DNA of 64,000 nucleotides from Nicoliella spurrieriana (lineage in GTDB: Bacteria; Bacillota; Bacilli; Lactobacillales; Lactobacillaceae). The notes beneath the pieces were generated by a model. It did not search any database. It was given only the letters and a program-made list of their open reading frames with translations, and was not told where the DNA came from. The position numbers and the translations under genes are program-made. The DNA is taken from assembly GCF_023380205.1 (NCBI RefSeq), contig NZ_CP093361.1:1330172-1394171 (forward strand), written 5' to 3'. The number at the start of each line of letters is the position of its first letter. Positions within the stretch are counted from its first letter, which is position 1. Shown here one piece after another: positions 7,153 through 61,800 of this stretch.

Positions 7153-7171
7153 TTTAACCATCCCTTCTAAA

Positions 7172-9992: not shown

Positions 9993-10006
9993 GTTTTATC
10001 CCCCAA

Positions 10007-13000: not shown

Positions 13001-13180
13001 AATTTCTTTATCGGTCATAATGGTTGCCGGGTTGGAGTTAATCAAAATCACTTCGTAGCCCTCTTCACGCAACGATAGACAAGCTTGTGACCCTGAATAA
13101 TCAAATTCAGCCGCTTGGCCAATTACAATGGGTCCCGATCCGATGACCAGGATTTTTTTGATGTCGGTTCTCTTTGGCAT
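10007..13180 (-). CDS. carB: Carbamoyl-phosphate synthase, large subunit
   Basis: 1,057 residues, normal length. Two homologous synthetase halves, each with a pre-ATP-grasp domain ([21 protein letters not shown] near residue 10; [20 protein letters not shown] near 550) and an ATP-grasp domain ([25 protein letters not shown]). A C-terminal MGS-like regulatory domain (about 930-1057, [21 protein letters not shown]) binds effectors such as UMP. Using ammonia from CarA it makes carbamoyl phosphate. It starts at the carA stop (one shared base) within the pyr operon, so it is the pyrimidine-linked enzyme. Confidence 0.97.
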
Positions 13181-14265: not shown

Positions 14266-14286
14266 TGTAATCCCCCTCAAATGTAA

Positions 14287-15540: not shown

Positions 15541-15543
15541 TAA

Positions 15544-16482
15544 CTATTCCTCCAGTAATCCACGTTGGTTTAACAACGTAGCCAAAATGGCCATCCGGGC
15601 AAACACCCCGTTGCGCATCTGGGTAAAAATACGCGATTTAGGAGCTTCTACCAGGCTTGAAGCAATTTCAACGCCCCGATTGACCGGTGCGGGATGCATG
15701 ATAATAGCACCCTGCTTCATTAATTGAGCCCGTTCTTCAGATAGCCCATAGGTCCTGTAATATTCATTGGGCGTAAATGCTGCGACGGCGTTTTGGTTCA
15801 AACGTTCTAATTGGACCCGTAATAACATCACTACGTCTAGGTGGGGCAGGATGTCATCAATCGAATCGCAATAGGTCCCAAATTGATCAAAGTCAGCTGG
15901 ATACCATTCCCGTGGACCCGCAAAGAAAACGTTGACCCCTAGCCGTTGTAAAATCTCAGCGTCGGAGCGGGCGACCCTAGAATGGGCTAAGTCGCCGATA
16001 ATGCCGATGTTTAAACCCGTAAATTGACCAAATTCATCGTGAATCGTCATTAAATCCAAGAGGGTCTGGGATGGGTGTTGACCACTGCCATCCCCCGCGT
16101 TCACCAGGGAAAGATTGATATTTGGATCACTGGTCAATTGATCGTACCAACCAGTTTGGGAATGGCGAATCACGGCAATATCAACGCCAATTGCTTGCAG
16201 GGTCTTGAGTGTATCACCAAGCGACTCACCCTTCTTAACGGAACTATCAGCCGGATTAATGCCGATTAAATCAATTCCTAACTTCTTTTCAGCCATTTGA
16301 AATGAACTATGGGTCCGGGTGCTGTTTTCAAAAAACAGGTTCGCAGCATACACCGGTCGGACCAATCGGACCTGTGCAGTCCCTGCTTTAAACCGTTCTG
16401 CTAATTCAATCAAATCATTAATTTGAACATCTGTTAAGTCGTTAATGTTCAAGAAATGGTGGTCACTTACTGCTTGAATCAT
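15544..16482 (-). CDS. pyrB: Aspartate carbamoyltransferase, catalytic subunit
   Basis: 312 residues. Carbamoyl-phosphate site FFENSTRTHSSF (Ser54-His58), GDGSGQHPSQTLLDL, and the Asp-binding MLLRVQLER and MHPAPVNRGVE. It joins carbamoyl phosphate and aspartate. I start it at ATG 16482 with GGAGGAGG about 10 bases upstream. An in-frame extension to 16554 would add 24 non-conserved residues and begin at the attenuator T-tract, so I rejected it. First gene of the operon. No regulatory subunit pyrI is seen, as expected for Firmicutes. Confidence 0.96.
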   Translation of the reverse strand: MIQAVSDHHFLNINDLTDVQINDLIELAERFKAGTAQVRLVRPVYAANLFFENSTRTHSSFQMAEKKLGIDLIGINPADSSVKKGESLGDTLKTLQAIGVDIAVIRHSQTGWYDQLTSDPNINLSLVNAGDGSGQHPSQTLLDLMTIHDEFGQFTGLNIGIIGDLAHSRVARSDAEILQRLGVNVFFAGPREWYPADFDQFGTYCDSIDDILPHLDVVMLLRVQLERLNQNAVAAFTPNEYYRTYGLSEERAQLMKQGAIIMHPAPVNRGVEIASSLVEAPKSRIFTQMRNGVFARMAILATLLNQRGLLEE

Positions 16483-16558
16483 AATTGTGCGTCCTCCTCC
16501 AAAATAACCAGTCCAATGGATCATTAATAATTGAATGAATTTGATATCGGTCAAATAA

Positions 16559-22800: not shown

Positions 22801-25800
22801 ATTCGTTGCGGTAACGTTCGCGGAGCTAACCAAACTAGCGTTAGCTGAAATGTTATTTGCAACGCTTGTGGCAATGCTATTTTGGACCTTCGCATCATCA
22901 TTAGCACTATTGATGGTGTTGGTTGCACTCGTTGCAACACTAGCAGCGGACTTAAAGGTCTGATCGTTTGGATCATTTACATAGTAGCTATTGATGGACC
23001 CAGCAGTTTGACTAGCAACCGATGCCTTCGAACTAACTGCACTATTAGCTGAGCTTGCAATTGAGGCGGTCGAGTTTGCACTGACTTGTTGGGCACTCGC
23101 AACTACGGCGTCACTTGCGGTCGCACTATTCGCAGAACTAGCAGCACTAGCTTTATCACTAGCGGAGTTCGTTTGAACATGGGCAAAGCTAGAGGCACTC
23201 GTAGCTTGACTAGCGGCACTGTTCAAGTCAACGGTGGCCGAGGCAATGGCCGAATCATCACTGGCAGCCTTTGCAGCAGCAACGCTCGCAGTCTTAGTAG
23301 CAGTAGCGATTGCACTGGCATTTGCAGTAATCGTCTTAGTAGCAGCACTGGCATTCGCAACCGTTACGGTAGCAGCATTGGCATAACTACTTGCGGCGAT
23401 TAGATCACCACCCAGTTCAGCAGCGGTAGCGGAAGCATCCATGGCTGAAACCTGGGTCGCATAATCGCTCAACGTACTGTTCAATGATCCATTCGCACTG
23501 GTCAACGATTGAGCGGTGCTGTTCGCAGCAACGGCAGTGCTCGATTGAACTTCAGCATCACTTGCGTATGAAGCGATGGCGTGATTGTCCGCACTAGCAA
23601 TGGCAGCATAACTTGCGACCGAGCTGTTCGAAGCATTTGCGCTCAACACATTAGCAACACTGTTGTTAACGGAACTAGCAACAATGGCAGCTTGATTTGC
23701 AATCGTTGCATCTGAAACGGCTTGTGATGCGTATGCACTAGCTGAATTAACGCTTAGGGTTGCACTCGCAATTGCTTGGGCAGTAACGCTTTGGTCCGAT
23801 TGAACGGCCATCGAGTTAGTTTGCGCATTTTCAATCGTGCGATCTGCATCACTAGCAGCGGAGCTAGCAACGCTAGTGGCACTGGCAACCACTTGATTGG
23901 CAACGCTCGCAGTCACTTCAGCGGACTTCGCAACGCTAGCTGCAACACTGGCAACGCTGGTGGCCGAACTAGCCTGAACGGATTGGGCAACGGCATCGCT
24001 TTGGAAGGCCGCCATACTAGTGGCAGCGGAGCTGGCTTGTGAATTAAATACACTTCCAGCAACGAGGTTGCCGGCACCGTAGGCGACATTCGCCTGACTA
24101 GCAAAGTTACTTACGGTCTGAGCGCCATTTGCAGCCAGACTGTTATCACGGTCCGCTTGACTAACGGCTTGACTAGCATCACTAACAGCACTGGTGGCCG
24201 TTGAGTGTGCACTCGTTGCGATGCTATCCGCATCTGAAACGGTCACGTATGCACTGGCAACGACACTCGCAGCACTGGAGACGATGTGATCATTTGGTAA
24301 TGCACTGACTAGGATGGCAGCAGTCGTTGAGTTGCTTTGGGCCACTTGGTCGTAACCGCTAGTAACTGCATTAGCAGAACTAGCAACCACGGCAGCGGAA
24401 CTGGCGGCAACTTGGTTCGTATTCGTTTGACGAGCTAAAGCAACCGTTGCGCTCGCAATGCTTGCTGCAACCGTATTAGCAGCACTGGCACTGAGCGAAC
24501 CCTGTTGACTAGCACGATCAGCAGCATCGGCAGCTGAATTAGCGGCCTGGGCGACGCTATTGGCGGAACTAGCCACACTGCTATCAACCAACGCATTCGA
24601 TGAAGCGGCACTAACAATTGCTGCTTGTTGAGCAGTCACACTAGCGGCGCTCGCTGCATTAGCACTGGCAACCATTGCGGTGGTAGCAGCACTGGATGCG
24701 GTGTTGGCATACGATGCAGCAGCATCAACATCCCCGCTTTGGGCAGCGACGGAAGCAGCACTGGCGGTACTTTGGGCCACTGAACTTGCGACACTAGCAA
24801 CTACGGCGGCACTTGAAGTCATAGCACTAGCACTAGCAGCTGCAATCGAAGCACTCGAAGCAACGGAAGCATTCGAATCAGCATCAGAAGCAGCTTGACT
24901 AGCAACGCTTGCTGCTGAATCAGCAACGACCGCAGCAGAACTAATTAGCGAGTTTGCAGGGTGTTGCGCTGAGTTCACAGTGGCTGATTGAGCAGCCGTG
25001 GACGCAGCACTGGCATCATGATGGGTCGCAACCGTGTTAGCACTAGCGCTTTCACTGGCAAGCTTAGTAGCGGCATTGGCAGCATCAGCAACACTACTGT
25101 TGTTGGTTGCGAGACTTTCAGCCCCACTTGCGACCTGCGATGCAGCAACTGCATTGCTTGCATAACTAGCAGCAGCACTTGCAACACTAGCGACGCTCAC
25201 ATAACTGGTAATTTGAGCTCCATCGTCAGTAGCGGCACTTTGATCAGCAATTGCGCTAGCGGCAGCAGAACTGGCAGCCAGGTTCGCAGCATTTGCACTA
25301 GCAACGGCAGTCGATGCTTGAGCAACTGCGGAGTCAGTAGCACTGGAGTACGCAGCAGCACTGCTGTTCAATGCATTTGCTTGAGCATAGTTACCGGCCG
25401 TCGTAGCCGATTCGGCTTGACTGGTGTAAACGCTGACCATTGTAGAATTCGAACTAGCAACCACGCTTGCATCGTTTGCAATCGTTGCGAACGAACTAGC
25501 TGCTTTGGATGCGTTAGCAGCACTGACTGCTTGCAACGAGGCGTCTGATTTAACGCTCCCTAACGAAGCAAGGACCGTCATCATCGCACTCGCAGCACTC
25601 TTGATGGTTGCATTGCTTAGGTTTGCTGATGCAAACGCACTCATTTGAGCACTTTGTTGATCAGCGGCATTGGATAAGCTCGTAACGACACTTACTGCAG
25701 ATGCAGCGGCACTGGCGTATCCGGAAGCGGACGTGACATCAGCACTTCCAATCAATGCGAATGAATGCGTAGCGGCACTTCCAATCGTAGCGTGGGCGGC

Positions 25801-28800
25801 TTGTGATTGAGCATCAGCACTGGCCTGATCAGCAGCACTCGCAGCTGAATTAGCAGCACTAGCGGCACTGGTGGCAGCAGTCGCGTTCGATAATGCAACC
25901 GCATTGGCAGATTGTTCGGTCACTAATGCAGCACTAGCGGCACTCACGGCGGAATCTGCGATCGACTTCGCAACGGCAGCGGAAGCATTGGCACTAGCGG
26001 CAACACTCGCAGCCGAACTAGCTTGGTTCATGGCAGCAGTCGTTGCACTGCTGTTCCCACTATTTGCATTGAGCGAGGCAATGAAGGCCGCGCTCGAAGC
26101 AATTGATTGAGCAGTGGCACCAGTTGAAGCAGCAACACTGGCGTTATGGCTTTGAACCGCAACCACGGCCGCAGCGGAACTAACAACTGCACTTTGGGCG
26201 CTAGCGACGCTGGCAGCGGAACTAGCAACACTGGCAGCGGTCCTTGCGGTTTCAGCAATTGATTGAACCGTAGCGTTACTTGGGTTGGCAGAAGCAACCG
26301 CAGTAACTGAGGTTGCGGTGCTTGCGGCACTCGCAGCGGTAGTTCCAGCAACACTGGCAACACTGGATGCAACCGAATCATTAGCGCTCAGTGCATTGGA
26401 ATCATCACTGACGGCAGCGCTGGCAGCGGAAGTCGTTACAACCGCATTTGATGCATTGACTGCATCACGCGCAGCGGCAGCAGCGTTCGCATCAGCAGTA
26501 CTGCCAAGTTGAGCGGCACTCAACGCACTTGCGGCAACCACGGCAGCGGCAGAAGCCTTGGCTTGGGCCCCGGCAGCTGATGCAGCTGCGGTAGAAGCGA
26601 TTGCGGTCGCAGCATTGGCAATTGACGTTTGGATAGTGGCATCGCTTGATTGAGCACTCATCGCAGCAGCGGCAGCAGCGGCGGTGGAAGTCAGGTCACT
26701 ACCACCATTCTCATCACCACGGGCATACGCACTATTAGCGGATGCAACTAAGCTGTTGACGCTATTAACCGTCAAACTAGCGTTATAAGCATCCAAGTTG
26801 GCCGTTGAAGCAGCGCTGTTGGCAACTAGCGCAGCGCTACTTGCGACGCTGGATTGAACGGCAGCATCGGAAGTCGCAGCACTAACTGCTCCGGCAGCGG
26901 AACTAGCGATGACAGCCTGTGATTGAACAAAGCTGTTATTGCTGTTGGCAGCTACGATTTGATCAATGGCAGTCGATGCACTCGTAACTTGGCTTGCGTA
27001 ACTATCAGCAACCGTTGAATCAGCACCTGCAACGACGGAGTAACTAGCTGCAGTTGAGGCATCTTGAGTCGTCCGCGTTGCATTGGTATTGATGCCCACT
27101 GCATTGCCACTAGCGAGTGAAGCGGTTTTGACGTTCGCATTCGAAGCGGAACTAGCAGCACTGTTAGCAGCACTACCGGCTGCATTGGCACTTTGGGCGG
27201 TACTATTTGCAACGCTAGCGGTAGCACTGGCGCTTTGGACGGTACTATTAGCTAAGCTGGCATCGGAAGCGGCAGCATCAGCAACCGCCTTAGCACTGGT
27301 AGCAGTGCTTGCAGCATTCACTGCAATCGACGCAGCAGCGGCTGCATTGGAACGTGCAAAACTAGCGGATGCACTGTTGCCGGCACTCGCGTAACTAGCA
27401 GCAGCAATCTTAGCAACGGTCGCAGCACTATTTGCCTGCGAACCACTAACAACGGCTGAGCTAGCAACTGCTGATTGGGTCGTAATCGTATTACTGTCGG
27501 TAACCACTTGATTCTTGGCACTTGCAGCCACTGCAGTTGCGCTATCGGCAACGCTGGCAGCCGAACTAGCGGCTAATGCAGCGGATTGTAGCGTAACGTT
27601 TCCAGAGTGGAGCGAAGCAAGCACGGAAGCGGCAATGAATGCGGAGTTTGCTGAAGCAGCAGAATGATCAGCTTGACTAGCAGCACTAAGTGCAGTCGTC
27701 GTGACGGAATCAACAGTTGCCGAATCAGCATTCACACTATTTTGTGCATCCCCAGCGCTTTGGGCAGCGGTATTAGCAACCGTTGCAGCACTGGATGCTT
27801 GATCAGCATCACTATCCGCCCCACTGGCCTGTTGAACAGCAACTAATGCATTTGATGCAGCAGTTAGGGCAGCGCTAGCAGTGGCGCGATCAGATTGGGC
27901 CTTAACCGCAGCACTGGAAGCAGCCGTTGAAGCGGCAGCGGCACTAGCAGCTTGGTCAGTAGCAACACTTACTTGCGATTGCATTCCAGTAGCCACTTGG
28001 GCAGCTTGGGAAGCAAGTAAGCTTCCGTTCGTAGCATCCCCAGTGGTGTAGGCACTATCAGCGGCACTGGCGAGGCTCTTCACAACGCTAGCGCTGGCAC
28101 TAGCAGCACTGGAAGCTTGGTTTGCACTACTTGCAGCAACACTAGCGATTAGATATTGACTGTTTGCAAGCATTGATTGATCGTTAGCATCACTGGCGGC
28201 AACGCTTGCAACCGCACTATTGGAACTAGCAAGCGCTGCTTGTGATTGAATGAAGCGACTAGCAGCATTACTACTGTTGGCGGCAACGATGCTTGCAATG
28301 GTAGCAGTCACGCTAGTCATTTGCCCACTATCGCTAGCAGTAACCGAAGCAGCTAGGCTAGCGGTTTGGGCATCAGAAGCAGCGTTGTTCGCATCTACAT
28401 CGGCAGCACCGGCATGGGCACTGGTTGCGACCGAGTAACTGTTTGCCAAACTATCACTACCGGCATCACTGACAGCAGCGGCACTGGCGGCACTCGCATT
28501 CGCACTAGCAGCATCGGTAGCGCTAGTAGTGGTGCTGTTGTAACCGCTAGCGGCGCTCGCAGCACTTTGGGCGGCGCTATTAGCAGCATTGGCAAGGCTA
28601 GTAGCAAGGACAGCAGCTGATTTAGCAGCGGCGGCACTGGCAGCGGCATTGGCGGCATCTGAAGCAGCCGAACTAGCAATGCTTTGGGCGGTATCCGCAG
28701 CGCTTTGGTTCCCGACATTGGCGACGCTTACAGCGACGCTGGCAGCCGAACTAGCAATTGAACTAGCGGTCGAACCAGCAAGCACAGCAGCACTAGCAAT

Positions 28801-31800
28801 GCTATTTTGAGTGCTGTTGATTCCGGCCTCAGAACTAGCAACCGAACTAGCTGACTCAGCCACAGCGGCTTCACTAGCGGCAGCGCTAGATGCATTATTA
28901 GCGCTAGTGGCTAATGCTGCGATGGTCGAGTTGCTTGGGTGGGTATTGGCCATTGACGTTGCAAGCGATGCTTGTGCTGAAGCACCCTTAGCATCAGTAT
29001 CAGCAGCAACACTGGCAACACTTGCCGATTGACTAGCCCGACTAGTGGCCACAGCAGCTAAACTAACGGCACTACTATCACTAGCAGCACTTTGGTCTGC
29101 CGTGGCGGCATTGGAAGCGGCACTTACCGCTTGACTGGCGGCGCTAACGGCAGCACTGGCAACCGATGCAGCGTTCACTTCTGCAGTCATGGCACTACTT
29201 AGTCCATTTGCTTGGGCTTGTAGACTAGTGGCTTGACTAGCAGCACTTTGGGCGGCAACGGTCGCGCTGGCGGCGTTGACACTGGCAGAACTAGCAGTTG
29301 ATGCGTTCACGGAGGCAGCTGCGGCATTGGAAGCGGCAATTACGTTAAATTGACTAGCGAGTGTGTAGTTGTGCGCATCGTTAGCAGAAAGCGCCTGACT
29401 GGTGGTGAAGCTAGCAAGACTAGCGTTGACACTAGCCATTTGACTATTACTGTTAGCAACGATTGCAGCAACACTGGCGGCTTGATATTGAGCATTGGCA
29501 ACACTTGCAGCAGCTTCAGCACTGGCCTGAACACTGGCCAACGCTACGCTGGCACTGTTCAATGCCACGCTAGCGGAACTAATTGCTGAGTTCCCCTGAT
29601 TAGCAGCAGCAGTGCTTGCGACGACTGAAGACTGTTGAGTGGCAACGCTAACGTTCCCACTAACTCCGCCAGCAACGGAACGAGCAGTTGAATTAGCACT
29701 GGCAGCTTGATCGGCATTCGCACTCGCAGCTGATGAGTAAGTCCCTGCAGCACTATTAGCGCTGGCAGCGGACGTATCAGCAGCACTGGCACTGGCAACG
29801 ATGGCACTGCTGTCAGCAGCGGCAACGTTCGCGGTCTCAGTCGCAATTGAATTCAATGAATCATTTGCAACGCTCGCGGTGTTGGCAGCGCTTTGAGCTG
29901 AACTAGCAGCGGACTGCGCAACGGTAGTTAGACTAGCGGCCAATGTGGCAGCACTAGCGGTACTGTCCGCGGTGGATTGGGCAACGTTCAGGTATGAAGT
30001 GGCGATGCTAATTGCAGAATCACCACCGGAAACGTTACCGGCGTTGTAATCAGAGACTGCAACGCTATTGTTAAAGGCGGCCGCAGTCGAATTATTGGCA
30101 ACGACTGAACTAGCGGACGCAATTGCAGTTGTGTATGAACTAACCACTGCATAAGCACTGGTTGCAATGCTCTTTTGAGCTTGCGCATCAGTGTTGGCAC
30201 TATTAATGATGGCCATGACACTGTTGGCAGCTGCGGATGCACTCTTGAACGTTGCATTCGATGGATCGTTAATGAAGTAGCTACCAATGGTACTAGTCGT
30301 GGCATTAGCACTATTAACGGTGGTGGTTACGACTACCCCGGTCGCACTGGCGGTGGATGCAGCCACGCTGGCAGCTGAATCATCAGCAAACGCAGTGCTG
30401 GTGGTCCCGGAAATTTGTCCGGTAGCAACGGCTGAAGCACTGGCAACTGAAGCAGCAACGCTATCGCCACTCTTAGCGGCACTAACGGCGCTTTGGATTG
30501 CAGCAGATGCGCTTGCAAAGCTGTTCATTTGCACCCCAATTTGTTGAACATCATTAGCTGCACTCGATGCAGCAGCACTCGCAACGTTAGTGTAACTAAA
30601 GATGGCACTGAAGTGGTTCAACATCGTTTGCGCAGTTTCAGAGGCAGTCGCAGCAGCTTGGCTAGCAACCTTCGCATAGCTATCACCAGCAGATGAACTC
30701 CCAGCAAGGTATGCGGAATTAGCTGAAGCCACGTTGGTAGCAACGGCACTCGAAGCACTGGCAATCGTGGTATTCAACGCACTATCAGAAGCATGAATGG
30801 TCTGGGCAACGAAGGCGGCACTCGATGCGATTGCATTTTGACTTTGGGCATCAACATTGAACGAACTAAGTGCGGCGCTAGCCATTGATGCAACTACGGC
30901 AGCACTAGCAACAGAAGCGTTCGAAGCATTGGCACTGATCAAATCAGCCATCCCGCTGTTCACAGCGCTGATGCTATTTGCATTGGAGCTAGCAGCCTTA
31001 GCGGCACTCGATGCAACCCCGGCAAATGAACTTGCAGCACTGGCGTTGGTGTTATCACCAGAAGTAACACTCCCGGCAACCGAACTAGCGGAGCCTGCCG
31101 TTGTGTTTTCGTTACTTCCGGCAATTGAGGCAGAAGTAGCTTGACTAGCGGCACTTTGGGCAGCAACCACGGCAGTTGAACCAACGGTGGCAGCAGAACT
31201 AGCAACTGATTGGTCATCAATTGCCTTAGCAGCAGCGGCACTTGCAACCACGGTTGCAGAAGCGGCCGTAGATGCTAACTTAGAAGTTGATTGTGACTGA
31301 GCACTCATTGCACCTGCGGCACTAGCAGCAAGTGAGGTTAAGAGTGCGCCTTGTGAAATATTCCCATCGGTGTATTCAGTGTTGGCAGCTGATACTAAGC
31401 TATTCACACTGGCCACGGCCAAGCTAGCGTTGTAAGAATCTAGACTAGCTTGACTCGCAGCAGCGCTAGCCACAACGGATGCACTAGCGGCAACGCTCGT
31501 TTGAGCATTCGCATCGGTATCAGCACTAGTGGCAACGCTAGCTGCGGAGTGCGCTAATGCAGCTTGAGCGGCAACAACACTGTTTTGTGGGTTTGCACTA
31601 GCCGTTTGATCAGCTACAGTAGCATTACTTTGGGCATTCTGAGTAAAGGTCGTCGTCATTCCAGCAGCAGAACTGGCTTGGGCCGCATCAGTCGAAGCCT
31701 GTTCAGCATCAACAGCGGTAGCACTGTAATTGCCATTCACATCGGCAGCATAACTAGCAGCAGTGCTGGAAGTGCTTGCGTTCTCAACGGCAGCGGATTT

Positions 31801-34800
31801 AACTCCGCTAACGGTTGAGTTCACGGCACTATTGGCACTAGCAGCCGCACTACTATCCGTATCGGCAGCAGCACTAGCATTGGATGCATCTTGATTAGCA
31901 GAATTGGCGGTACGATTAGCATCGGCAGCAACTGCCATCGCAGATGCGGCAATCGAAGCAGCCGTTGAAGCAGCAGTATTGGCAGCAATTGCGATTGAGT
32001 TCGCAACGCTAGCGGTCGAACTATTACCAACGCTAGCGGCACTAGCAGCAACCTTTGCAGCACTAGTAGCAGTCGAGCTAGCAACGACTCCGGAAGCAGC
32101 GGCAGATGAAGCCACACTACTTTGGGTGGTTGCAACGCTAGCAGCGGAACTAGCCACGGAGCTTGCGGATGACGCAACGGAGGCCTCACTCGTAGCGGCA
32201 CTGGCAGCACTATTGGCAACGGCTGCATATGATGCGATCGTCGTGTTGCTTGGGTTGGCATTGGCAGTCGAAGTAGCAGCCGAAGCATCCTTAGCAGCAG
32301 CACTCGCGGTCGTACTAGTGGCAACACTGGTTGCATGGGCAGCAGTATTTGCAGCCGTTGCAGAATCAGTATCGGAAGTAACGGCCATGCTATCAGCATT
32401 CGCAGTGGCAGCGAAACTAGTAGCAGTCACAGCATTACTATTAGCAGCACTGGCACTATCGTCAGCCCCACTGGCAATTTGGGCATTGCTCAAGGCCGTC
32501 GAAGCAGCCGTAGAGGCAGCATTGGCAGTAGAACTGTCAACTTGCGCCTGCTTAGCAGCACTTTGCGCCGTGGTGTTTGCAACACTGGCAATTGATGCCT
32601 GCTTAGCAGCATCTTCAGATTGTGCACTCATGGCAGTTGCACTTTGGGCAGCTTGGGAAGCAAGCAGGCTTCCGTTTGCAATGTCACCATCAGTGTAAGC
32701 ACTATTGGCAGCACTGGCTAAGCTGTTAACGGCACTGGCAATGGCGTTCGCATTACTTGAATCCACGTTAGCGGTACTTGCAGCGGCTGAAGCTGCTTGA
32801 TAAGCACTGGCAGCGGTGGATGATTGAGCATTGGCATCGGCAATTGCGGCACTAGCAGTCGCGCTGGCTGAAGTGATGATCGATGATTGAGCCTTGATGT
32901 AACCATTAGCAGAATTACTACTGTTAGTGGCAACGATGCTGGCAACTGCACTGTTAGCGGTAGTAATCTGGCTACCATCGCTATTGGCAACGGAAGCAGC
33001 AACACTAGCGGTGTTGGCAGCATTAGATGCATTAGTAGCATCGGCATTGGCAGCACTCGCATTGGCACTTACATCGGTGGCATAGCTACTTGCCTTTGCA
33101 ACATTGGCAGCATCACTAGCTGAAGCGGCGTTAGCGGAAACGGCAGTCGAAGTGGCATCGCTATTGGCGGTGCTTGCAGCAACACTAGCGGCACTAGCAG
33201 CAGTGTTGGCACTTTGGGCCACCCCGGCAGCTGAGTTGGCGGTGCTGTTAGCAGCATCTGCAGCAAGCTTAGCAGCAGCTACTGCTGACGCCGCACTTTC
33301 GGCATCACTGGCAGCCGAACTAGCGATTGCGTTTTCAACGCTCGCCGTGGAACTGTTTCCAGCACTAGCGGCACTGGCAGCGACTTTCGCAGCACTGGCA
33401 GCGGTGGAACTAGCTGTTGATCCGACCTTAACGGCGGAAGTGGCCACACTACTTTGAACAGTTGCAACGCTAGCAGCTGAACTAGCCACGGAGCTTGCGG
33501 AGGTAGCAGTTGAAGCCTGTGTTGAAGCAACACTCGCATCACTATTAGCAGCGTTTGCGTAGGAGGCAATCGTTGCATTCTTTGGATTAGCATTCGCGGT
33601 TGAAGTGGCCGTAGAGGCATTCTTGGATGCCGCACTGGCAGTCGAAGTAGCGGCAGAGGTTGCCGTACTTGCAACCTGGTTAGCGGCATCTGCAGAGCTT
33701 GCGTCAGCACTTACCGCACCACTATCAACACTAGCCGTCGAAACAGCACTAGTGGCGTCGGCAGCATTACTGTTGGCGGCACTGGCACTATCATCAGCCC
33801 CACTGGCAACTTGGGCATTGCTTAAGGCCGTCGAAGCAGCCGTGGAGGCAGCATTGGCAGATGCACTGTCCACTTGCGCCTGCTTTGCAGCACTTTGCGC
33901 CGCGGTATTTGCAGCATCAGCAATTGATGCTTGATCACTGGCATCATTTACTTGTGATTGCATGTTAGCGGCAGTTTGGGAAGCTTGTGAATCCAAGAGT
34001 TTCCCGTTGCCAGTATCCCCATTCGAGTAAGCAGAACTAGCGGCGGCAACGAGACTATTCACAGCAGCTAGACTTGCACTGGCAGTCGTGGAATCAACCA
34101 CCGCCTTGCTAGCAGCGATCGAAGCAACTTGGGCTTGACTAACCGCAACGCTGGATTGAACGTTGGCATCGGCAGTAGCAGCACTGGCAGTCGCACTGGC
34201 AGAAGCAACAGTTGACGATTGGGCCTTGATGTAGCCATTAGCAGCATTACTACTGTTTTCAGCAAAGATACTATTCACGGCCGTTGAAGCATTGGTAACC
34301 TGACCACTATCGCCGTTAGCAACCGAAGCAGCAACACTAGCAACGTTAGCAGCACTGTTGGCGGAGTTTGCATCGTTAACAGCAGCCCCGGTGTATGTGC
34401 TGGTCTTGGTGTCTTCATTGGTTGCACTCGCATCGACACCGGCATCACTACCCGCAGCAGCACTGGCTGCGCTTGAATTTGCAATCGCAGCACTGGTAGC
34501 ACTAGCGGCCGTCTTACTATCACCACTAGCAGCCACATTCGCAGCTTGACCCGCATTCGCAGCACTATTGGCGATACTATTTGCTACATCAGCGGCAGCT
34601 TTTGCAGATGCAGCGGAAGCAGCGGCATTCGATGCATCATTGGCAGCCGAACTAGCAATTGAGTTTTCAACGCTGGCCGTGGAACTATTTCCGGCACTAG
34701 CAGCACTAGCAGCAGCTTTCGCAGCACTATTAGCAGTTGAACTAGCAACAATCCCGGAAGCAGCAGCGGTTGAAGCCACACTACTTTGGATGGTTGCAAC

Positions 34801-49800: not shown

Positions 49801-52800
49801 GGCCGCACTGGCGAAACTACTCATTTGCACCCCGATTTGGACAACATCATTTGACGCACTCGCTGCAGCGGAACTGGCAATCGTGGTGTAACTCAAGATG
49901 GCACTGGATTGATCAATCATCACTTTAGCAGCACTAGCAGCAGTTGAGGCGGCAGTGCTTGCAGCAGTTGAGTAATTATCTCCATCACCGGTGTTTCCAG
50001 CAACGTAAGCGGAGTTAGCGGATGCAACGTTGGTAGCCACCGCACTAGATGCGCTAGCAATGGTACTACTCAATGCGCTGTCGCTACCATAAATGCTAGT
50101 GGCAACACTCGCTGCACTGGATGCAATCGAATTTTGGCTCTGCGCATCGACATTGTATGAAGCAATGGCAGAATTAGCAGCACTTGCTGAAACGGCATAG
50201 CTAGCTACTGAAGCATTCGAAGCATTGGCATTCACCAAGCTAACAATTGATTGGTTTTCGCTACTAATACTATTAGCGTTGGAACTTGCTAAACTAGCGG
50301 AACTAGATGCATTTTTTGCATAGGAGTTAGCTAAACTATCGTTATTACTGTCACCAGCAACGACACTTCCAGCAGCGGAACTAGCTGAAGTGGCAGTGCT
50401 GGATTCATTACTACCGTTAGAAGTAGCATTAGCAGCTTGACTAGCTGCAGATGAGGCAGCATTGTTGGCATTAGCTGCATCAATAGCAGCTTTGCTGGCC
50501 ACTGATTGATCCGAAATTGCCTTAGAAGCGGCAGTCGATGCAACCACCGTTGCGGAAGATGCGGTCGATGATTGGGCTTGCGCATCCTTGACTAAGTTCG
50601 CCATTCCAGAAGCAGCATTGGAAGCTTGAGATGCAAGGTTTGACCCCTGATCATTGTTTCCAGCAGTATAGGCACTATTAGCAGCAGCCACTAAGCTGTT
50701 TACATTGTTGGCGGTCAAACTAGCAGTTACTGAATCTTTATTAGCTTGAGCGGCTGCATTGCTGGCAACTACGTAAGCACTATTAGCAGTGCTGGATTGA
50801 GTATTAGCATCAGCTAGTGCGCTCGTAGCAACATTAGCGGCAGAGCTAGCAACCGTTACTTGATTCTTAACAATCGTGTTCGTAGCTGCAGCAGAAGCAA
50901 TCGAATTAGCAGCGGTTGCGTTACTTTGGGCGGTACTGTTAAAGCCACTGGTAGCAACAGCAGCGGCACTAGCTTGAGAAGCATAGGTAGAGGCACTATT
51001 AGCAGCAGTATTGGCGCCATTAGCAGCGGTGCTAGTCGCATCATTGGCACTATTGGCCGAACTAGCAGTTCCAGAATCATTACTGGAAGCATTAGTAGCA
51101 GCATTGGCAGTCGAACTAGCAGCACTGTTTGCACTAGATGCAGTATTACTATCTGCACTAGCTGCGCTGTTGGCACTTTGGGCAGCACTATTGGCCGAAT
51201 TAGCATCATTATTAGCTCCATCAGCAGTATTCTTTGCATTCGAAGCAGTTGCAGCATAGCTAGCTGCTGCACTGGCGGCATTGCTTGCAATTAACCGTTC
51301 TGAACTGGCGCTAACGCTATTACCAGCACTAGCGTAGCTAGCGGCATTTGAAGCCGCAACACTGGCGTTATAACTCTCAATGTTACCAGAATTGGCAGCC
51401 ACACTGGCAATTACGCTTTGACTATTAACCACCGAAGCAGCAGAGCTAGCCTTAGCACTAGCGGATGAAGCAACCGATGCTTCGCTAACCGCAGCACTAG
51501 CGGCAGTACTTGCAGTGGAAGCTAATGATTTGATCGTAGCATTGCTTGGGTTGGCTGAAGCAATTGCAGATGCAGAGGCTGCACTAGCAACGGCACTTTG
51601 GGCCGTAGCACTAGCAGCTGCGCTAGCGGAGTTCGCAGAAGCTGAAGCACTAGTTACACTTGTAGCATCTGAATTAACTGCAGCGTTATCAACCCCAGCA
51701 CTAGCAGCTGCTGTTGATGCATTGGCAGAATAACTAGATGCTAAACTAGCATCGCTATCAGCCCCACTGGCATTTTGCGCATTGTTCAATGCGGTGGAAG
51801 CAGCAGTGGAGGCAGCATTAGCATTTGAACTATCAGTTTGAGCTTGCTTGGCAGCACTAGCAGCAACCACAGCGGCAGAACTGGCAATTGATGATTGAGT
51901 AGATGCATCGCTAACCTGGGCACTCATTGCATTAGCAGATGTAGCAGCTTGAGAAGCGAAGATGCTCCCATCAGTTATATCACCAGCTGAGTAAGCACTA
52001 TTGGCGGAACTTACGAGAACTGCAATTGCACTAGAACTAGCGGATGTGGCACTAGAATCAATTGCTGCTTTATTAGCAGCACTAGCAGCAACTTGATAAG
52101 CAGAGCTAGCAATGCTGGATTGGGTATTTGCATCCAAAGCAGCGGCACTCGCAAACGAGCTAGCGGAACTAACCGTTGAAGCTTGGGTACTGATGTAACT
52201 ATTGGAAGCATTACTGCTATTAGCAGCAATAATGTTACTGATTGCATTCGAAGCATTTGAAATCTGGGTACTATCGCTGTTAGCAACTAAAGCGGCTTCG
52301 CTCGCCGTTTTAGCATCATTCGATGCTCCATTAGCACTATCGCTTGCAGCGCTGGCGTAAGCAATCGTAACGCTATTAGCGGAACTAGCAGAGCCATTCG
52401 TCCCGGAATCAGTATTAGAAGCATCACTAGCAGCATTCGCAGTCGAAGTAGCTGCACTGTTGGCAGAACTGGCAACACTGTTGGCGGAACTTGCAACGCT
52501 ATTGGCAGCATTAGCATCGTTAGTGGCCGAGCTGGCATCATTAGCTGCGGTATCTGCTGCTGATTTAGCAGCTGCAGCGGATGATGCAGCATTAGATGCA
52601 TCGTTATTGGCATTACTTGCAATGGAAGCATCTGCACTTGCAGTCGAACTATCCCCACTTTGGGCAGCAATGGAAGCAGCAATTGCTGCAGAACTAGCCT
52701 TTGAAGCAGCTGTAGAGGCTACTGTGGAGGCTGTACTTGCAGCGGATGTTTGGGAACTGATCGTAGCAGCATCTGAGTTAGCCCGTGCATGGGCAGAGCT

Positions 52801-55800
52801 AGCTGCAGAAGCAGCACTAGCAGCAGTACTGGATGCAGTGGCGGCACTGGATGCTAACGAAGCAATCGCTGAGTTCTTCGGGTTGGCACTAGCAACTGCA
52901 GCAGCAGAGGCAGCTTGACTACCCGCTAAAGTGGCTTGCGATGCAGCAGTGGAGGCAGCAGTAGAAGTACTGTTCACAGCATTGGAAGCAGCTGATGAAT
53001 CAGTAGCAACCGCCTTACTGTCAGCATTCGCATTGTTAGCATAACTGGATGCACTAGCTGCATAACTGGAAGCAGCACTGGCGCTATCATCGGCCCCACT
53101 GGCGTTTTGCGCATTGCTCAATGCAGTTGAAGCAGTTGATGATTCATTGTTAGCAACGGAGCTATCAATAATTGCATTAGATGCAGCAGTCGAAGCTACA
53201 GTCGATTCTGAAGTAGCGATTGATGACTGAGTAGCTGCATCATCAGCTTGCGACTTCATTGCGGAAGCCATTGAAGAAGCTAGTGAAGCATTGAAGCCAC
53301 CAGTAGTGGCGTCACCAGCAGCATATGCACTATTAGCAACGTTAACTAAGCTGTTAACCGCACTAGCAGTGGAGCTAGCAACACTCGAATCACTAGCAGC
53401 CTTGCTAGCTGCAGTTGAAGCGGTGCTGTAAGCATCGGCAGCAGTCTTAGATTGGGCATTTGCATCCGAAGTAGCAGAACTTGCAACCGAGCTAGCGGAA
53501 CTAACCGTTGAAGCTTGGGTACTAATGTAGCTATTTGAAGCATTACTACTGTTGGCAGAGAAAATACTACTAATTGAATTTGATGCACTAGCAACTTGAT
53601 TACTGTCACTATTAGCAACTGAAGCAGCTTGACTAGCAGTGGTGGCATCACTAGCTGCACTATTCGCAGCAGTACTTGCGGCACTCGCAGACGTACTAGT
53701 AGCTGAATTGTAACCATTAGCGGAATTGACAGTGCTAGAATTATTGCCAGATGCAGCAGAAGCAGCGCTAGCAGTTGAACTCGCAGCATCGTTAGCTGAA
53801 CCAGCCACACTGTTAGCGGAGCTAGCCACACTGTTAGCGGAACTAGCCGTACTGTTGGCAGAATTAGCATCATTGGTAGCGGAATCAGCTGCTGATTTAG
53901 CAGAGGCGGCAGTACTTGCTGCATTGGATGCATCGTTAGCGGCAGCACTGGCAGCCGCAGCATCTGAACTGGCAGCGGAACTATTGCCACTTTGAGCATC
54001 TGCTGAAGCGGCACTGGCAGCGGAACTAGCCTTAGAAGCGGCAGTCGATGCTGCAGTTGACGCAGAACCCGCAATTGAATTTTGAGCACTGATCACTGCC
54101 GATGCAGAGCTTGCTTTGACACTAGCTGATGCAGCAGTCGAAGCGGCAGTTGATGCAGCAGTACTTGCTGAAGCAGCACTCGATGCTAATGAAGCAATTG
54201 CTGAGTTCTTAGGGTTGGCTGACGCATATGAGGCAGCAGATGAAGCGGCAGAACTAGCTGCTTGTGATTGAGCAGCAGCATTCAATGCATTGGAAGAAGT
54301 ACTATTCACTGCAGTGGAGGCAGCAGATGAATCGTTAGAAACTGCAGAGCTAGCAGCACTGGCGTTGCTTGAGTAACTACCAGCTTGACTAGCAGCACTC
54401 GATGCGTTCGAAGCATAACTGACCGCTCCATTTGCAGTTGAAGCCGCAGCAATTGCTGATGTCATCTCACTACTCAATGTGTTTGCGGATGTAGCACCGT
54501 TCGATGCAACACTCGCAGCAGATTGTGCAATCGAAGTTGCATTCGATGCAGATACACTAGCTGCCTTAGCTGAATCAGCATTAGTAGCAGCGGATGATGC
54601 AAAATCAGCAGCAGTGGAGTTGTATGCACTCGCTTGGGTGTAGTTACCGGCACTATTAGCAGATGCAGCTTGGCTAGCGTTTTGACTAGCTAAGCTAGCA
54701 TTGATGCTAGCCATTGCACTATTACTATTCGCAACGGAAGCAGCGGAACTGGCGACTTGATATTGGCTAGCTGCAACGGAGGAGGCGCTATCAACATTTG
54801 TCTTGATCCCGGATAATGCAGCACTGGCACTGTTGAAGGTCGAATTTGCACTCGAGATTGCAGAGTTCCCGGAGTTAGCAGAGCTAGTTGCGTAAGCACT
54901 CATGGTCGAACTTTGGACGTTGGCATTGTTGGAAGCATTGGTAACGACTACGTCAGCGGAACTAGCCGTGCTATTAGCAGTTGATGCCTTAGTAGCATCG
55001 GCATTGGCACCATTTGCGTATGAAATGGCGGCACTGTTAGCAGAACTAGCCGTAATACTGTTATTAGATGCAGCTGAACTAGCGGTACTACCCTGATTAG
55101 CAGCAGCGGAACTGGCAGCCGTTGAAGCAGCAGTTAGTGAATCAATTGCAACACTAGCAGATTGTTCATCCTTAACAGCTTGATTAGCTGCACTTTGGGC
55201 AGATGATACTAAACTACCGGTCGTAGCGGCCGCACTAACGGCGACACTAGCAGCACTACTTGCAGAGCTTGCAACGGCAACGGCACTCGCTGTGTAAAGA
55301 GAACCATTTGTGACGTCCCCCTTGGTGTATGCGGAGCTAGCCAATGCGTAGTAGCTATTCGCACTTGAAACGGCAGCACTCATATTAGCATTCGCAGAAC
55401 TAACCAAAGCAGCTTGTGAAGACACGGCTGAAGAAGCGCTACTTGCGATGCCCTTTTGAACCTGGGCGTCGGAATTAGCACTACTAATTACGGTCATGGC
55501 ACTATTGGCAGTGGAAGCTGCAGAACTAAAGGCCGCATTACTTGGATCATTAGTGACGAGGCTGTTGATCGTGTTCGTCATCGTGGTAGCACTAGCATTG
55601 TACCCACTGGTCTTAGCCGCAGCGGAACTAGCTGATTGATATGCACTATTAGCATTATTAGAATCAGTTGTTACTGTCCCTTCGGCAGATGATGTCACTG
55701 CACTTGCAGAACTAGTTGTGCTAGCTGCACTACTTGCATTATTATTCCCACTATTGGCAGTCGAGGCTGCACTGGAGGCTGCACTGGACGCATTCGCAAA

Positions 55801-58800
55801 GCTACTCATTTGAACGGCCATGTTTTGCACATCTTTAGCCGCACTGGAAGCAGCCACACTCGCAATATTGGTTTGACTCAAGATCGCACTTGAGTTATTG
55901 ATCATGCTTTGTGCAGTAACGGAAGCCACACTCGCAGCCGTACTTGCAGCAGTCGAGTAATTATCACCATCACTAGTGTTTCCAGCAACATAAGCGGAGT
56001 TAGCGGCAGCCACATTACTATTAACCGCACTGGATGCGCTAGCAATGGTACTGTTCAATGCACTATCTGAACCCTGGAGTACGGTCGCAGTACTTGCGGC
56101 AACCGAAGCAATTGATTTTTGATTTTGCGCATCTGTGTTGTATGAAGTAATGGCAGAATTAGCCAGACTGGCTTGAGTAGCATAACTAGCCACCGAAGCA
56201 TTTGAAGCATTGGCCTTAGCAAGGCTAGCGATTGAATCATTAACCGTGTTGACACTATCAGCACTAGAACTAGCTTGACTGGCAGATACCGATGCATCAC
56301 TGGCATATGAATTAGCTGAACTAGCGTTGTTAATGTCACCAGTAGTAACGCTACCGGCAACCGAGTTAGCTGAGGAAGCAGTGTTGGATTCATTATTCCC
56401 GTTAGAAGTGGCAGTCGAATCCTGGCTCGCAGCAGATGAAGCAGCAATATTGGCAGAAGCTGCATTAATAGCAGCTTGGCTGGCAGAGGATTGATCCGCA
56501 ATCGCCTTAGATGCAGCATTGGATGCATTCACCGTAGCATTCGAAGCCGTTGTGGATTGCGCAGATGCGTTACTGACCAATGCAGGCATACCCTTAGCAG
56601 CAATCGAAGCTTGGGCAGCGTAAATTGAACCATCGGTAGCATCACCGTTGGTGTAAGCACTATTAGCAGCAGCTACTAAGCTGTTTACATTGCTTGCAGT
56701 CAAGCTAGCAGTTACTGAATCTTTATTAGCTTGGGCAGCGGCAGAGCTAGCATCCGCATAGGCACTATTAGCAGTGCTGGATTGAGCATTGGCATCAGCA
56801 AGTGCACTCGCTGCAACGCTAGCGGCAGAGCTAGCAATCGATGCTTGATTCTTAACAATCGTGTTCGTAGCTGCAGCGGAAGCAATCGAACTAGCAGCAG
56901 TTGCATTACTTTGGGCGGTACTGTTAAAGCCACTGGTAGCGACAGCAGCGGAACTGGCTTGGGTTGCATACTTAGATGCACTATTTGTAGAAGCATTGGC
57001 CCCACTTGCAGAAACGCTAATGGCGGAGCTAGCGCTATTGGCAGTACTGGAAGTCCCGGAGTTGTTACCAGAAGCTGATGAAGCAGCACTAGCAGTCGAA
57101 CTAGCAGCACTATTAGCAGAACTGGCGGCACTATTAGCAGAACTAGCAGCACTATTAGCAGAACTAGCAGCACTATTAGCAGAACTGGCGGCACTATTGG
57201 CAGCATCAGCAGCAGATTGAGCTGAAGATGCATCCTTAGCAGCATTCGATCCATCAATTGCAGCAGCACTAGCAATTGAATCTTCGGCACTAGCCGTAGA
57301 ACTATCACCCTTTTGGGCAGCTGAAGATGCGGCACTAGCAGCGGAATTAGCAACTGAGTTCGCGGAACTAGCAACTGATGAAGCCGAGTTAACTGCTGAA
57401 CTTTGGACTGCCACTGTTGATGAAGCAGCAACCGCATTTGAATGTGCAGTAGATGCTACAGCAGCTTCACTTGCAGCATTCGAAGCGGCAACGCTCGCAC
57501 TGGATGCTAATGAAGCAATCGTCGAGTTCTTTGGATTAGCAGAAGCAACTGCGGCAGCTGATGCAGATGCACTGGCAGCCGATTGAGCTTGTGAAGCTGC
57601 ATTGGTAGCATCAGTAGCAGCATTAGCGGTAGCTTGACTAGCGGCCTTGGAATCACCAGCGACAGCGGAACTAGCAGCATTAGCAGAACTAGAATACCCA
57701 CTAGTGGCACTCGCAGCACTTGCCGTTTGGCTAGCATAACTAATGGCAGAACTAGCAGCTTGCGCAGATGCCACAGCATTCGAAGCGACAGTACTTTGTG
57801 AAGCCGCACTACTTGCAATGGCACTAGCCCGATCAGCAGCGGATTGAGCAGAGGCAGTGGCACTGGAAGCTGTAACACTATTAGCTTTGGCAGCATCAGC
57901 AGCTTGACTAGCGGCCGCAGCATAACTCGAAGCACTTGAATTAAATGCTGCAGCGGAAGTATAATTTTGCGCACTATTAGCAGATTCGGCCTGACTAGCA
58001 GCCTGACTAGCTAAGCTAGAATTAGCAATTACCGTAGCATCATTACTGCTTGCTTGAGAAGCAGCGGCACTGGCAATGCTGTATTGAGTACTTGCATCGG
58101 TCGAATCAGCATCAACGCTCGTCTTCGCACTGCTCAAAGCAGCGCTAGCAGAACTAAAGGCGGAGCTAGCGGTACTTAATGCACTGTTGCTTGCGTTACT
58201 TGGGTTGTTGACAATATTGCTCATGACCGTAGATTGACCATTCGCAGTGTTAGAGTAGCTAGTGACCACGCTATCAGCGGAACTAGCCACTGAGTTGGCA
58301 GTTGATGCCTTACTTGAATCGGTACCCGCACCACTTGCATACGAACTAGCGACACTGGAAGCTGAACTAGCGGCAGAGTTAGCTGATGTTGCAGATGAAT
58401 TAGCCCCACTGGAGGCACTTTGTGCTTCATTAGAAGCAGAAGAATAGGCATTGCTTAAGTCCGCATGTGCAGAATTAGCTTGATTTTGATCGGAAATAGC
58501 CTTACTTGCTGCAATGCTCCCGGCTGAAGTAGTAGCCGCAATTGAAGTTGAAGCATTGGATGCAACCACAGCTAACGAACTCGCATTGGATGCAATCGAA
58601 CTTGCCTGAGCCGCATAAGAAGATCCTGAAGTTACATTTCCGGCAGCATAATCAGAACTTGCTAATGAATAGTAACTGCTTTCACTAGCACTCATGGATT
58701 GAATTTGGCTATTAATCGATGAAGTAGATGAAGCTACTGCTGATACAACCGAATAAGCACTGGATGCAACTGAACTTTGGTTAGAGGCATCAATGCTAGC

Positions 58801-61800
58801 TGCATTAATTGTATTCATTGCACTACTTGCGACACTGTTAGCTGATTTAAATACAGAATCCGAAACATTGTTAATGAAGTAAGAATTGATTTCACTAGCA
58901 GTCGTACTATTAGCACTGTATGAAGTGCTAATTGCGGATGATGCTAAACTTGCTTGACGATTATAATCGCTTGCAGACGATAGATAACTTTGATTTGAAT
59001 TATTTACACTACTAATTGAAGAACTAGCAATACTAAAGGCATTCGAAGCGCTATTAACGGAGGATGATCCCGAAGTAGTAGCAGCACTAACACTTGCAAA
59101 GGCGTTGGAAGCACTATTAAATGAATCAACAGCGGTGTTGATTGATTGAACGTCATTGGCAGCCTTAGAAGCAGCAACACTGGCACTATCAGTTAATTTT
59201 TGAATTGAAGCAGCGTTACTTGATAACGTAGTTGCAACTGAAGCAGCACTTGCAACCGCGCTCTTGGCGGCACTAGCAAAGCTATCTCCTGTGGTACTAC
59301 CAGCTAGGTAAGCGGAGTTCGCACTCGCATCATCATTGGCAACAGCAGTGGAATAGCTATTCACGGATGCAAGCAAACTAGTATCGGAACCGTGAAGTGA
59401 AGTAGCTTCACTGGCGGCACTAGAAGCGATACTGTTTTGTGTATCAGCATCATTAGCGTAGCTGGTAATTGCAGACTGAGCAGAGGATGCAGCTTGGGCA
59501 TACGAGGATAGGCTTGCATTGCTACCGTTAGAACCAGCACTAGCAATCGATGCAATGCTACCATTGGCACTATTAACACTGCTCCGATTGGAATCAGCTT
59601 GGGCAGCGTAGCTCGAAGCTTGAGCAGCATAGGAACTAGCAGAGCTAACGTTAGTGGAATCAGCAGTGTTAGCACTATTGGCAACTGATTGAGCAGAGTT
59701 TGCACTACTACTATTTTGACTTGCATTGGAATTGGCATTAGTGGCTTGACTAGCAGCTGATTGAGCAGATGACAATGCATCACTTGCAGCATCATTAGCA
59801 GCTTGGGCACTGGCTTGATCAATTTCAGCTTGCGCAGCAGCATTGCTTGCAGCGACCCGGGCTGAACTAGCAATTGATGACTGCTTATTAACATCAGTGA
59901 TTTGATTTTGAATTGCTGATGAAGCATTTGCTGCTTGAACTTGATATGAATTTCCAGCGCTAATATCACCATTTTGGTAAGCAGAATTAGCTTCCGATAC
60001 ATATGAATTAACACTAGCTAAGTTAGCAGAAGCAGCGCTAGAATCCTGTTTAGCTTGACTATCAGCACCAGAAGCAGCATATGCTGCGGAATTTGCAATG
60101 CTAGATTGATTAATTGCATCACTATTATATGAACTAGCAGAACTGGCATCCAAATTAGCACTTGATGCGAATGCGGATACTACGGAGTTATTGCTGTTAG
60201 CAGCTGAGAGCGAGTTAGCTACATTAGCATAACTATTAGCAGAGGAATTGGCCGTACTAGTTGCATTCGCTGCGGATCTAGCAGAACCAGCGTATTCAGA
60301 TGCCAACTGATAATCACTATTGACACCCACAGCGGTACTAGCAACTAAATTAGCAGATGAACTGGCAGAACTAGCAATTGAAGCGTCAGAACTAGATCCA
60401 GAAGTAGCTGCATTACTGTTGGTGTTAGCAGCACTCGAGGCACTTTGGGCAGTGCTATTAGCATTACTTGCGTTAGTAGATGCACTAGAAGCAATACTAT
60501 TCTGAACGCTACCATCACTAGCATAACTTGATGCTGCACTAGCAGCTTCACTAGCATTGATTGCATCAATAGCAGCCTTGCTAGCCGCAGAACTAGCAGC
60601 ACTTTGTTCAGAGATCGCATTACTACTATCACCATTAGTGGCATAACTTGATGCTGCAATAGCAGCACTAGATGCTACAGAATTTGCAGAACTAGCATCA
60701 GAGGATGCACTACTTGCCGTTGAACTTTGTAAGCCTGCGTTCGAACTATCATCCCGCGCCTTTGATGCTGCAGAACTAGCTACTGTAGCATCAGAACTAG
60801 CATTGGATGCAGCACTAGTTGCAATACTTGCATAAGAACTCAATGCTGAATTATTTGATTGCGCTTTAGCTGAACTATTCATTGATGATGCAATTGAGCC
60901 CGCACTAGTAGCACTATTTGAAGCATTCGTTGCCGTAGATGTTGCTGCATTAGCTTCATTTGAAGCAACTGAACTAGCAGAGCTAGCTAAACTACTTGAA
61001 TTAGAGGCGTTACTAGATGAACTACTTGCTTGGACAGCATAACTACCAGCAGCAATTGCAGCACTATCAGCAGATCCAGCAGCAACTGCTTTATTGTACG
61101 CACTACTTGCATCAGTAGCAGCTTGGCTCATTACTGAAGAATCACTTGAAGCACGTGAAGCAGCACTAGATGCACTGATTGTATAACTAGCGACAGAACT
61201 ATTAGCAACACTTGCTTTACTATCAGCAACAGAAGCATAACTAGAATTAATTGATACCTGAACGACATAAGAATTAGCTGCAGAACTATCCCCTGCAGAA
61301 TAAGCACTAACTGCTAATGAAGCATTAGTAGATGCAGAAGTAGCTTCGTTACTAGCAGCGATTGCATAGCTAGCTGCAATTGATGCTTGAGAACTTGCAG
61401 CATAACTTGCCGAACTAGCATCACTGGACGCAATATTAGCATCAGCACTAGCGGAACTAGCAACGACACTAGCACTATTAGCTATACTACTATCGTTTTT
61501 CAGGTTAGCATCAGATGGATACATGCTAGCAATCGAACTAATTGCTGATGATTGTGAACTAACTTGAGCGCTACCTGAAGCAATGGATCTTGATCCGGAA
61601 CTAGCAGTAACTGAATATGAATTAGCAGAACTACTATGAATGGTTGCATTAGATGATTGAATTGCAGCATCACTAGCACTAGCTTGAGCTGAACTGAGCA
61701 TTGTATTCATACTAATGATTGCATTTGCAATCGAATTAGCGTTTGAAATAATGGGTAGTTGCGATTGCATTTTAATAGCTGATAATGAATCAATATCTTG

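Follow-up and report, generated by a model that had tools for sequence, protein, structure and literature searches.

The window, i.e. the whole stretch of 64,000 nucleotides analysed here (Nicoliella spurrieriana, RefSeq assembly GCF_023380205.1, contig NZ_CP093361.1, positions 1,330,172 to 1,394,171), contains most of a giant gene on the minus strand, the product of which is made up largely of modules of about 222 residues arranged in two tiers, as five-module superunits and as two-module dyads. The features concerned are, in window coordinates, as follows (letters denote module types, and the marker is a recurring motif described below):

16813..64000, minus strand: giant open reading frame, open at the right window edge
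57535..60858, minus strand: superunit 1 (B-c-D-E-F; marker 58866 in E), from clustering
54214..57534, minus strand: superunit 2 (marker 55545), from clustering; modelled with AlphaFold2 (AF2)
51550..54213, minus strand: two BC dyads, from clustering and chimera scoring
48229..51549, minus strand: superunit 3 (marker 49560), from clustering
32254..48228, minus strand: array of 12 BC dyads (15,975 bp = 12 x 1,332 - 9), from clustering and chimera scoring; the B-C-B stretch 46231-48228 was modelled
28939..32253, minus strand: superunit 4 (marker 30264), from clustering
26284..28938, minus strand: two BC dyads, from clustering and chimera scoring
24961..26283, minus strand: variant dyad, a B/E chimera and then F (join 5>4), from tree and chimera scoring
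21646..24960, minus strand: superunit 5 (marker 22971), from clustering
17689..21645, minus strand: diverged tail modules m61-m66 (approximate end), some with positional counterparts in genes of Lactobacillus sp. Sy-1
16825..17007, minus strand: DUF5776 domain (PF19087) at the C-terminus (E = 1.9e-15, 57.2 bits vs. a cut-off of 27)
9057..16554, minus strand: pyrimidine genes pyrB, pyrC, carA, carB and pyrD (names read from Pfam matches), downstream of the giant gene; synteny anchor common to Sy-1

In the genome, the frame of the giant gene extends over 16,840 codons without a stop. A TTG codon behind a GGGGGA stretch, at window-equivalent 67,323 and 3.3 kb outside the window, is its probable start, from which the full protein would have 16,836 residues, a mass of 1,575 kDa and a pI of 4.1; the N-terminus gives a weak match to KxYKxGKxW_sig (19.4 bits, under the cut-off of 23.6). 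Alanine and serine account for 32.6% and 23.8% of the repeat region, respectively, and the G+C content is 0.51-0.55 across the repeat coding region (18001-48000, in 2-kb steps) vs. 0.39-0.42 over the window's initial 10 kb. Identity within the protein at lags of 7, 14 and 21 corresponds to heptads, the strongest lag being 444.

An earlier note, made from the sequence alone, had read the two building blocks from the spacing of a marker, NDPSNATFKS. Its five coordinates are correct and all lie in the frame of the giant gene, each denoting the third residue of the motif (P in four of the five); the exact string occurs only at 30264, the other four being variants, namely NNVSDSVFKS (58866, a weak one lacking the P), NDPSNAAFSS (55545), TDPNNETFKS (49560) and NDPNDQTFKS (22971). 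The distances of 3,321, 5,985, 19,296 and 7,293 bp were likewise right; they equal 1107, 1995, 6432 and 2431 residues, or 5, 9, 29 and 11 modules of about 221.5 residues. None of 200,000 random sets of four distances (uniform, 1-20 kb) had all its members within 24 bp of 3,321 + k x 1,332. This arithmetic alone gives weak evidence for two blocks, since with modules of about 222 residues any odd number of at least five fits the formula, and clustering of the modules is therefore the decisive test. Clustering by the unweighted pair group method with arithmetic mean (66 modules, 12 clusters) gave the order ABCDEFBCDEFBCBCBCDEFBCBCBCBCBCBCBCBCBCBCBCBCBCDEFBCBCBFBGDEFBHIJKL, in which c and C, told apart by nearest neighbours and trees, carry one label. 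The predicted order of fives and twos was thus reproduced, with the superunit BcDEF present in five copies and the dyad BC in 16, and the two blocks were borne out also by profiles on related genes and by unsupervised trees. Concerning the units counted previously through the string SGAD (0, 2, 12 and 3 per marker interval), the exact string occurs 0, 2, 12 and 1 times, one of the 12 (residue 7436) lying off the module grid, so that the last count fails as a count of strings; as numbers of modules they stand, the numbers of BC dyads per interval being 0, 2, 12 and 2, with a variant dyad (B/E-F) as a further unit of the last interval.

Lactobacillus sp. Sy-1, the source of which is Heterotrigona itama honey according to the accessible part of PMC13134047, has a frame of 13,654 codons directly upstream of its pyrB and pyrC, each 82% identical to its counterpart, and because of this position the gene is taken as the positional orthologue. 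The top autocorrelation lag is 1105 residues (five modules) in this frame, 1108 in a second Sy-1 gene, and 1549 and 1107 in the neighbouring paralogue of the window gene; other giant frames differ. Profiles trained on the window (made without m55) recognized in the orthologue seven tandem BcDEF superunits and an eighth further along. Of its 46 labelled units, 40 belong to these eight, and it has in addition one BC dyad and one variant dyad. Both kinds of block are thus present in the orthologue, in proportions that speak against the insertion envisaged in the earlier note. By the same profiles, the neighbouring paralogue has BcDEF blocks with BC. In an unsupervised tree of 184 modules from the four genes compared (the window gene, the neighbouring paralogue and the two Sy-1 genes; painted modules of at least 205 residues), the groups B, c + C, D, E and F each include all four genes and both species, i.e. 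the main groups correspond to types and not to genes, and copies at the same position in the four genes cluster together for the first B (support 0.995) as well as for the B/E module (1.0).

The superunits appear to be old, because the identity to superunit 2 is only 40-64% for the other window superunits, 46-57% for those of Sy-1 and 52-59% for those of the paralogue. When the superunit alignment (17 of the 19 complete superunits, with one from each Sy-1 gene set aside) was compared with 151 genomes of the family, full-length matches were found only in two Nicoliella-type genomes, eight others having short and weak local matches. The N-terminal region beyond the window (locus L029:4208-6055) is spread more widely than the bundles, with sequence matches in 18 of the 151 genomes and, among near-complete genomes, in 12 of 40 genera. 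As side observations on the paralogues, a second giant gene (14,133-codon frame, contig 1397784-1440182) lies directly upstream of the window gene and contains the same five bundle types in a different order, and the dominant periods of others are 1330 residues, i.e. six modules (720723-743117), 430 (592158-599621) and 442 with 221 (638886-679775).

The dyad module C resembles c to about column 130-145 and F beyond, each part being about as close to c or F as these are to themselves. Painting with the five superunit types only gave c|F mosaics for most dyad modules, in the window as well as in the other genes. With profiles from the other three genes, c>F was the best of 20 ordered type pairs in all 16 C modules of the window, with gains of 28.2-74.0 bits, whereas 43 of the 44 control modules (5 c, 6 F, 22 B, 10 D or E, and m54) gained at most 18.5 bits, the exception being m54 with 33.1 as B>E (the scoring covered the window modules apart from W1 and W62-W65). 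The junctions, estimated with profiles from all four genes, were pooled at column 145 for a main set of 15 dyad modules (without W32, W53 and N37), and found at 142 in T17, 144 in T14 (B>E) and 146 in S3; four B/E modules pooled at 155 (140-160).

The AF2 model of superunit 2 (17-row alignment) is almost all helix, with a predicted local distance difference test (pLDDT) of 72.8 and a predicted template modelling score (pTM) of 0.34, and that of B-C-B (38-row alignment; pLDDT 83.9, pTM 0.48) has helices at 4-74, 78-220, 227-298, 302-443, 448-518 and beyond. Per module there are thus predicted helices of 71 and 143 residues, lengths that would fit a chain like spectrin, with two bundles sharing each long helix. 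Spectrin-type rods have a long helix common to neighbouring three-helix bundles; the helices predicted here are much longer (about 71 residues) and rich in alanine and serine, and the likeness is one of shape. Six elongated trypanosome receptor chains, also used for shape and not for homology, align with Z 12.6-14.9 to model residues 151/157-363/379 or 371/373-588/603, spans that each begin halfway along one long helix and end halfway along the next; the match to 4e40, for example, has Z 14.9 and a root-mean-square deviation of 2.5 over 206 residues, the Foldseek E for the B-C-B model being 0.17 or worse. The structural matches put the borders of the predicted three-helix bundles near column 150, close to the chimera junctions, and the marker-based frame seems to cut the bundles in two, a frame about 148 residues later being better. 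No spectrin chain was among the 50 entries listed by VIA, which is no evidence against a spectrin fold. With superunit 2, no match was obtained among the sequences of solved structures at 0.01, nor any Pfam family at E 0.1. The Ser-Ala-175 repeat (TIGR04319) was rejected as a candidate family, superunit 2 scoring 18.3 bits vs. a cut-off of 120.

When the four genes were re-cut at column 148 and scored with profiles from the other three genes, 171 of 174 units (180 adjacent module pairs minus six at breaks) were labelled confidently as one of five types. The window order is 5 12345 12345 15 15 12345 (15)x12 12345 15 15 45 12345 1 4 (5)(1), one unit being lost at a break within the 12-dyad run, and that of the Sy-1 orthologue is 5 15 (12345)x7 45 12345 1. 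As read from the sequences, the five types, their order and the chimeric dyad modules are established features, as are the superunits common to orthologue and paralogue. Among 159 joins (the count omits three letters of low confidence, a '345' at the end of the neighbouring gene and a lone final '1' in the second Sy-1 gene), 135 follow the cycle, 19 are 1>5, four are 5>4 and one is 1>4, i.e. 158 are of seven kinds. The join 1>5 omits types 2, 3 and 4 (1,989 bp, the cassette of the earlier note) and 5>4 omits 1, 2 and 3, both skipping three bundles. In an unsupervised tree, the 22, 21, 29 and 53 units of types 2, 3, 4 and 5 fall into four clades, one per type and with no foreign members; only the low-confidence outlier N44 prevents the same for type 1. 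A scan of the frame in steps of five columns, in which the structure was not used, gave the highest dyad fit at a cut of 145, the superunit controls being flat.

Concerning the direction of change, the C copies are nested in c, in three groups, in the tree of the 5' part (columns 1-145), and the 16 window C modules are all placed by the 3' tree in a clade of 56 that also contains the F modules, with W53 basal; several of the supports are weak. The most fitting reading, since C is a c/F chimera nested in this manner, is that the 1,989 bp were lost on the way from superunit to dyad, the dyad being a superunit minus three modules that was afterwards amplified in the window gene. Of the 19 type-1 units preceding 5, the bundle-frame tree unites 18 in one clade (0.999), nested among those preceding 2, and S2 of Sy-1 stands apart, which points to at least two dyad origins. 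The main dyad seems to predate the species split, since one copy sits in a Sy-1 gene, and amplification to 16 copies is confined to the window gene among the four.

Based on the above results, the following explanation as a whole is considered quite probable: an old five-bundle superunit gave rise, by losses of three bundles, to dyads that were amplified within one long surface rod. The repeat region would form this rod from about 65 model-predicted three-helix bundles of about 222 residues, at about 10.6 nm per bundle probably some 0.7 micrometre long; the five types would constitute the old head-to-tail superunit 1-2-3-4-5 (3.3 kb); recombination in register, near the bundle borders, would have removed exactly three bundles, producing dyads 1-5 and, via another join, 4-5; and the 1-5 dyad would then have reached its 16 copies in the window gene, 12 of them in one run. 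A structural grammar, according to which a recombinant persists only if its breakpoint falls between three-helix bundles and, except in the tail, only if three bundles are skipped, so that the length and composition of the rod are free while nearly every bundle is one already proven in the superunit, is offered more tentatively, as a possibility that may well prove wrong.

Several points weigh against this explanation or parts of it. Modules W34, W40 and N37 were painted partly as D; scored against pure c or F only, the non-dyad controls gain up to 24.6 bits; and the junctions of W36 (169) and N37 (110) are stray. The type labels, unlike the sequences, are partly interdependent, because window-trained profiles supplied the types of the modules in the other genes, which then served to score the window; the unsupervised trees are the check on this. 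The dyad peak of the frame scan is broad, the fit varying by only about 5 bits between cuts 105 and 170, and for the B/E modules the best cut is 165. Both models have low pTM, and neither matched any PDB entry in Foldseek at E 0.001; the Z values of 13-15 may reflect merely a common helical arrangement, some of the listed chains span the proposed border (e.g. 8w20_A, 1-346), and the packing of the first 150 residues could be affected because the modelled fragment starts at the marker border. Regarding the grammar, the tail join 1>4 breaks the rule, and 'always three' rests on few events, since only two unusual joins recur. How often dyads arose is less certain: three groups are indicated by the 5' tree, where some supports are weak, and two by the type-1 tree, and dyad and superunit copies stand intermixed in several groups of the type-5 tree; exchange between copies is therefore likely, and gene conversion may blur the history.

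It is unlikely, although compatible with the three-bundle losses, that the two tiers represent a functional code under selection, the superunits carrying putative binding or cross-linking sites and the dyads acting as spacers that set their distance: the same superunit types are retained in two species, and dN/dS (the ratio of nonsynonymous to synonymous divergence, dS being the latter) is below 0.5 (0.17-0.42) in ten module pairs, hand-picked and mostly the most similar ones, but the spacing is very unlike between the positional orthologues, with one BC dyad in Sy-1 vs. 16, and no ligand site was identified, no search aimed at one having been made. That the dyad array is the older one in the window gene and that the superunits were copied into it from the neighbouring paralogue by in-register gene conversion is improbable; it would account for the interleaving of dyad and superunit type-5 bundles in the tree and for the richness of the adjoining paralogue in superunits, yet the superunit array is already present in the syntenic Sy-1 gene, and in the module tree the first B and the B/E module cluster according to position, all four genes together. 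The proposal of the earlier note, in which an original two-module array received a three-module cassette of 1,989 bp at intervals, was not supported and appears very improbable: the marker distances fit it, and the dyads are also old, being present in both species, but the seam lies inside module C, which nests inside c and inside the F clade, and not the other way round, the syntenic Sy-1 gene consists mostly of superunits, and the superunits are old by their low mutual identities. An assembly artefact is hardly credible, even though repetitive loci are hard to assemble and some other giant frames of this genome are broken, because the closest of the ten pairs is 91.6% identical in DNA, the pairs have dS of 0.17-1.27 and no listed stretch at the five lags scanned averages more than 88.7% identity, a pattern of divergence that, with the dN/dS values, also argues for selection on the protein, and the frame stays open over its 16,840 codons, with the same units in the independent assembly of another species.

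The array resulting from three-bundle losses and amplification may be compared with the higher-order repeats of centromeric satellites, in which diverged monomers form multi-monomer units, the copy number changes by in-register exchange and old monomers lie at the edges; the window array resembles them but lies in a protein-coding gene under purifying selection. Among proteins, the megaproteins of Nicoliella are described, in the part of the source available, as having Ser/Ala-rich repeats over thousands of residues, generally a signal peptide and sometimes a C-terminal DUF5776 (PMC11349052), and the window protein is alike in genus, repeats, DUF5776 tail and size. In Giant1-3 of Apilactobacillus kunkeei, as far as the accessible text of PMC12863079 goes, a signal peptide and an N-terminal beta-solenoid domain are followed by a long alpha-helical repeat rod and a DUF5776/SH3b-like end, with repeats of 62, 103 and 366 residues; the window protein shares the DUF5776 end (by Pfam) and near-wholly helical stretches (by AF2, from which a rod is proposed), but its repeat lengths are different and a two-tier order was not found in that text. 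Embp of Staphylococcus epidermidis, a surface protein of about 1 MDa made of repeated alpha-helical bundles (PMC7587433, available part), is similar in size class and bundles, a likeness by description, its F and FG repeats being described otherwise. Given this family context, i.e. the DUF5776 end, the signal-like start and the secreted giants in PMC11349052 and PMC12863079, the product of this bacterium, an isolate from the honey of stingless bees, may be a cell-surface protein, a wall-bound rod serving adhesion, aggregation or biofilm formation in bee or flower niches.

The megaprotein class is thus already published, whereas no published description of the five-type order was found; the accessible main text of PMC11349052 yielded none of a repeat unit, of five types or of their order, and nothing relevant on higher-order repeats in bacterial surface proteins was found among the titles and abstract starts listed. 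Very long surface proteins have been reported in several bee-associated lactobacilli, and how they lengthen or shorten is little described in the literature found. A code of five letters in which nearly all joins are of seven kinds, common to two species, would allow the deletions and amplifications to be reconstructed step by step, and also a test of whether structure dictates which recombinants survive. If true, the structural grammar would make repeat evolution in these giants a length tuner with a check on register, much like the higher-order repeats of satellites but expressed as protein.

Two minor observations concern the surroundings. Past the dihydroorotate dehydrogenase gene, window positions 6640-8933 contain three adjoining minus-strand open reading frames of 180, 300 and 290 residues, for which no Pfam match was obtained at E 0.01. 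Elsewhere on the contig, at 590000-690000, further giant Ser/Ala-rich frames are broken, two, near 592 and 611 kb, being split by stops in the same frame, and an overlap of frames occurring near 679.6 kb, so that these would be either pseudogenes or sequencing errors.

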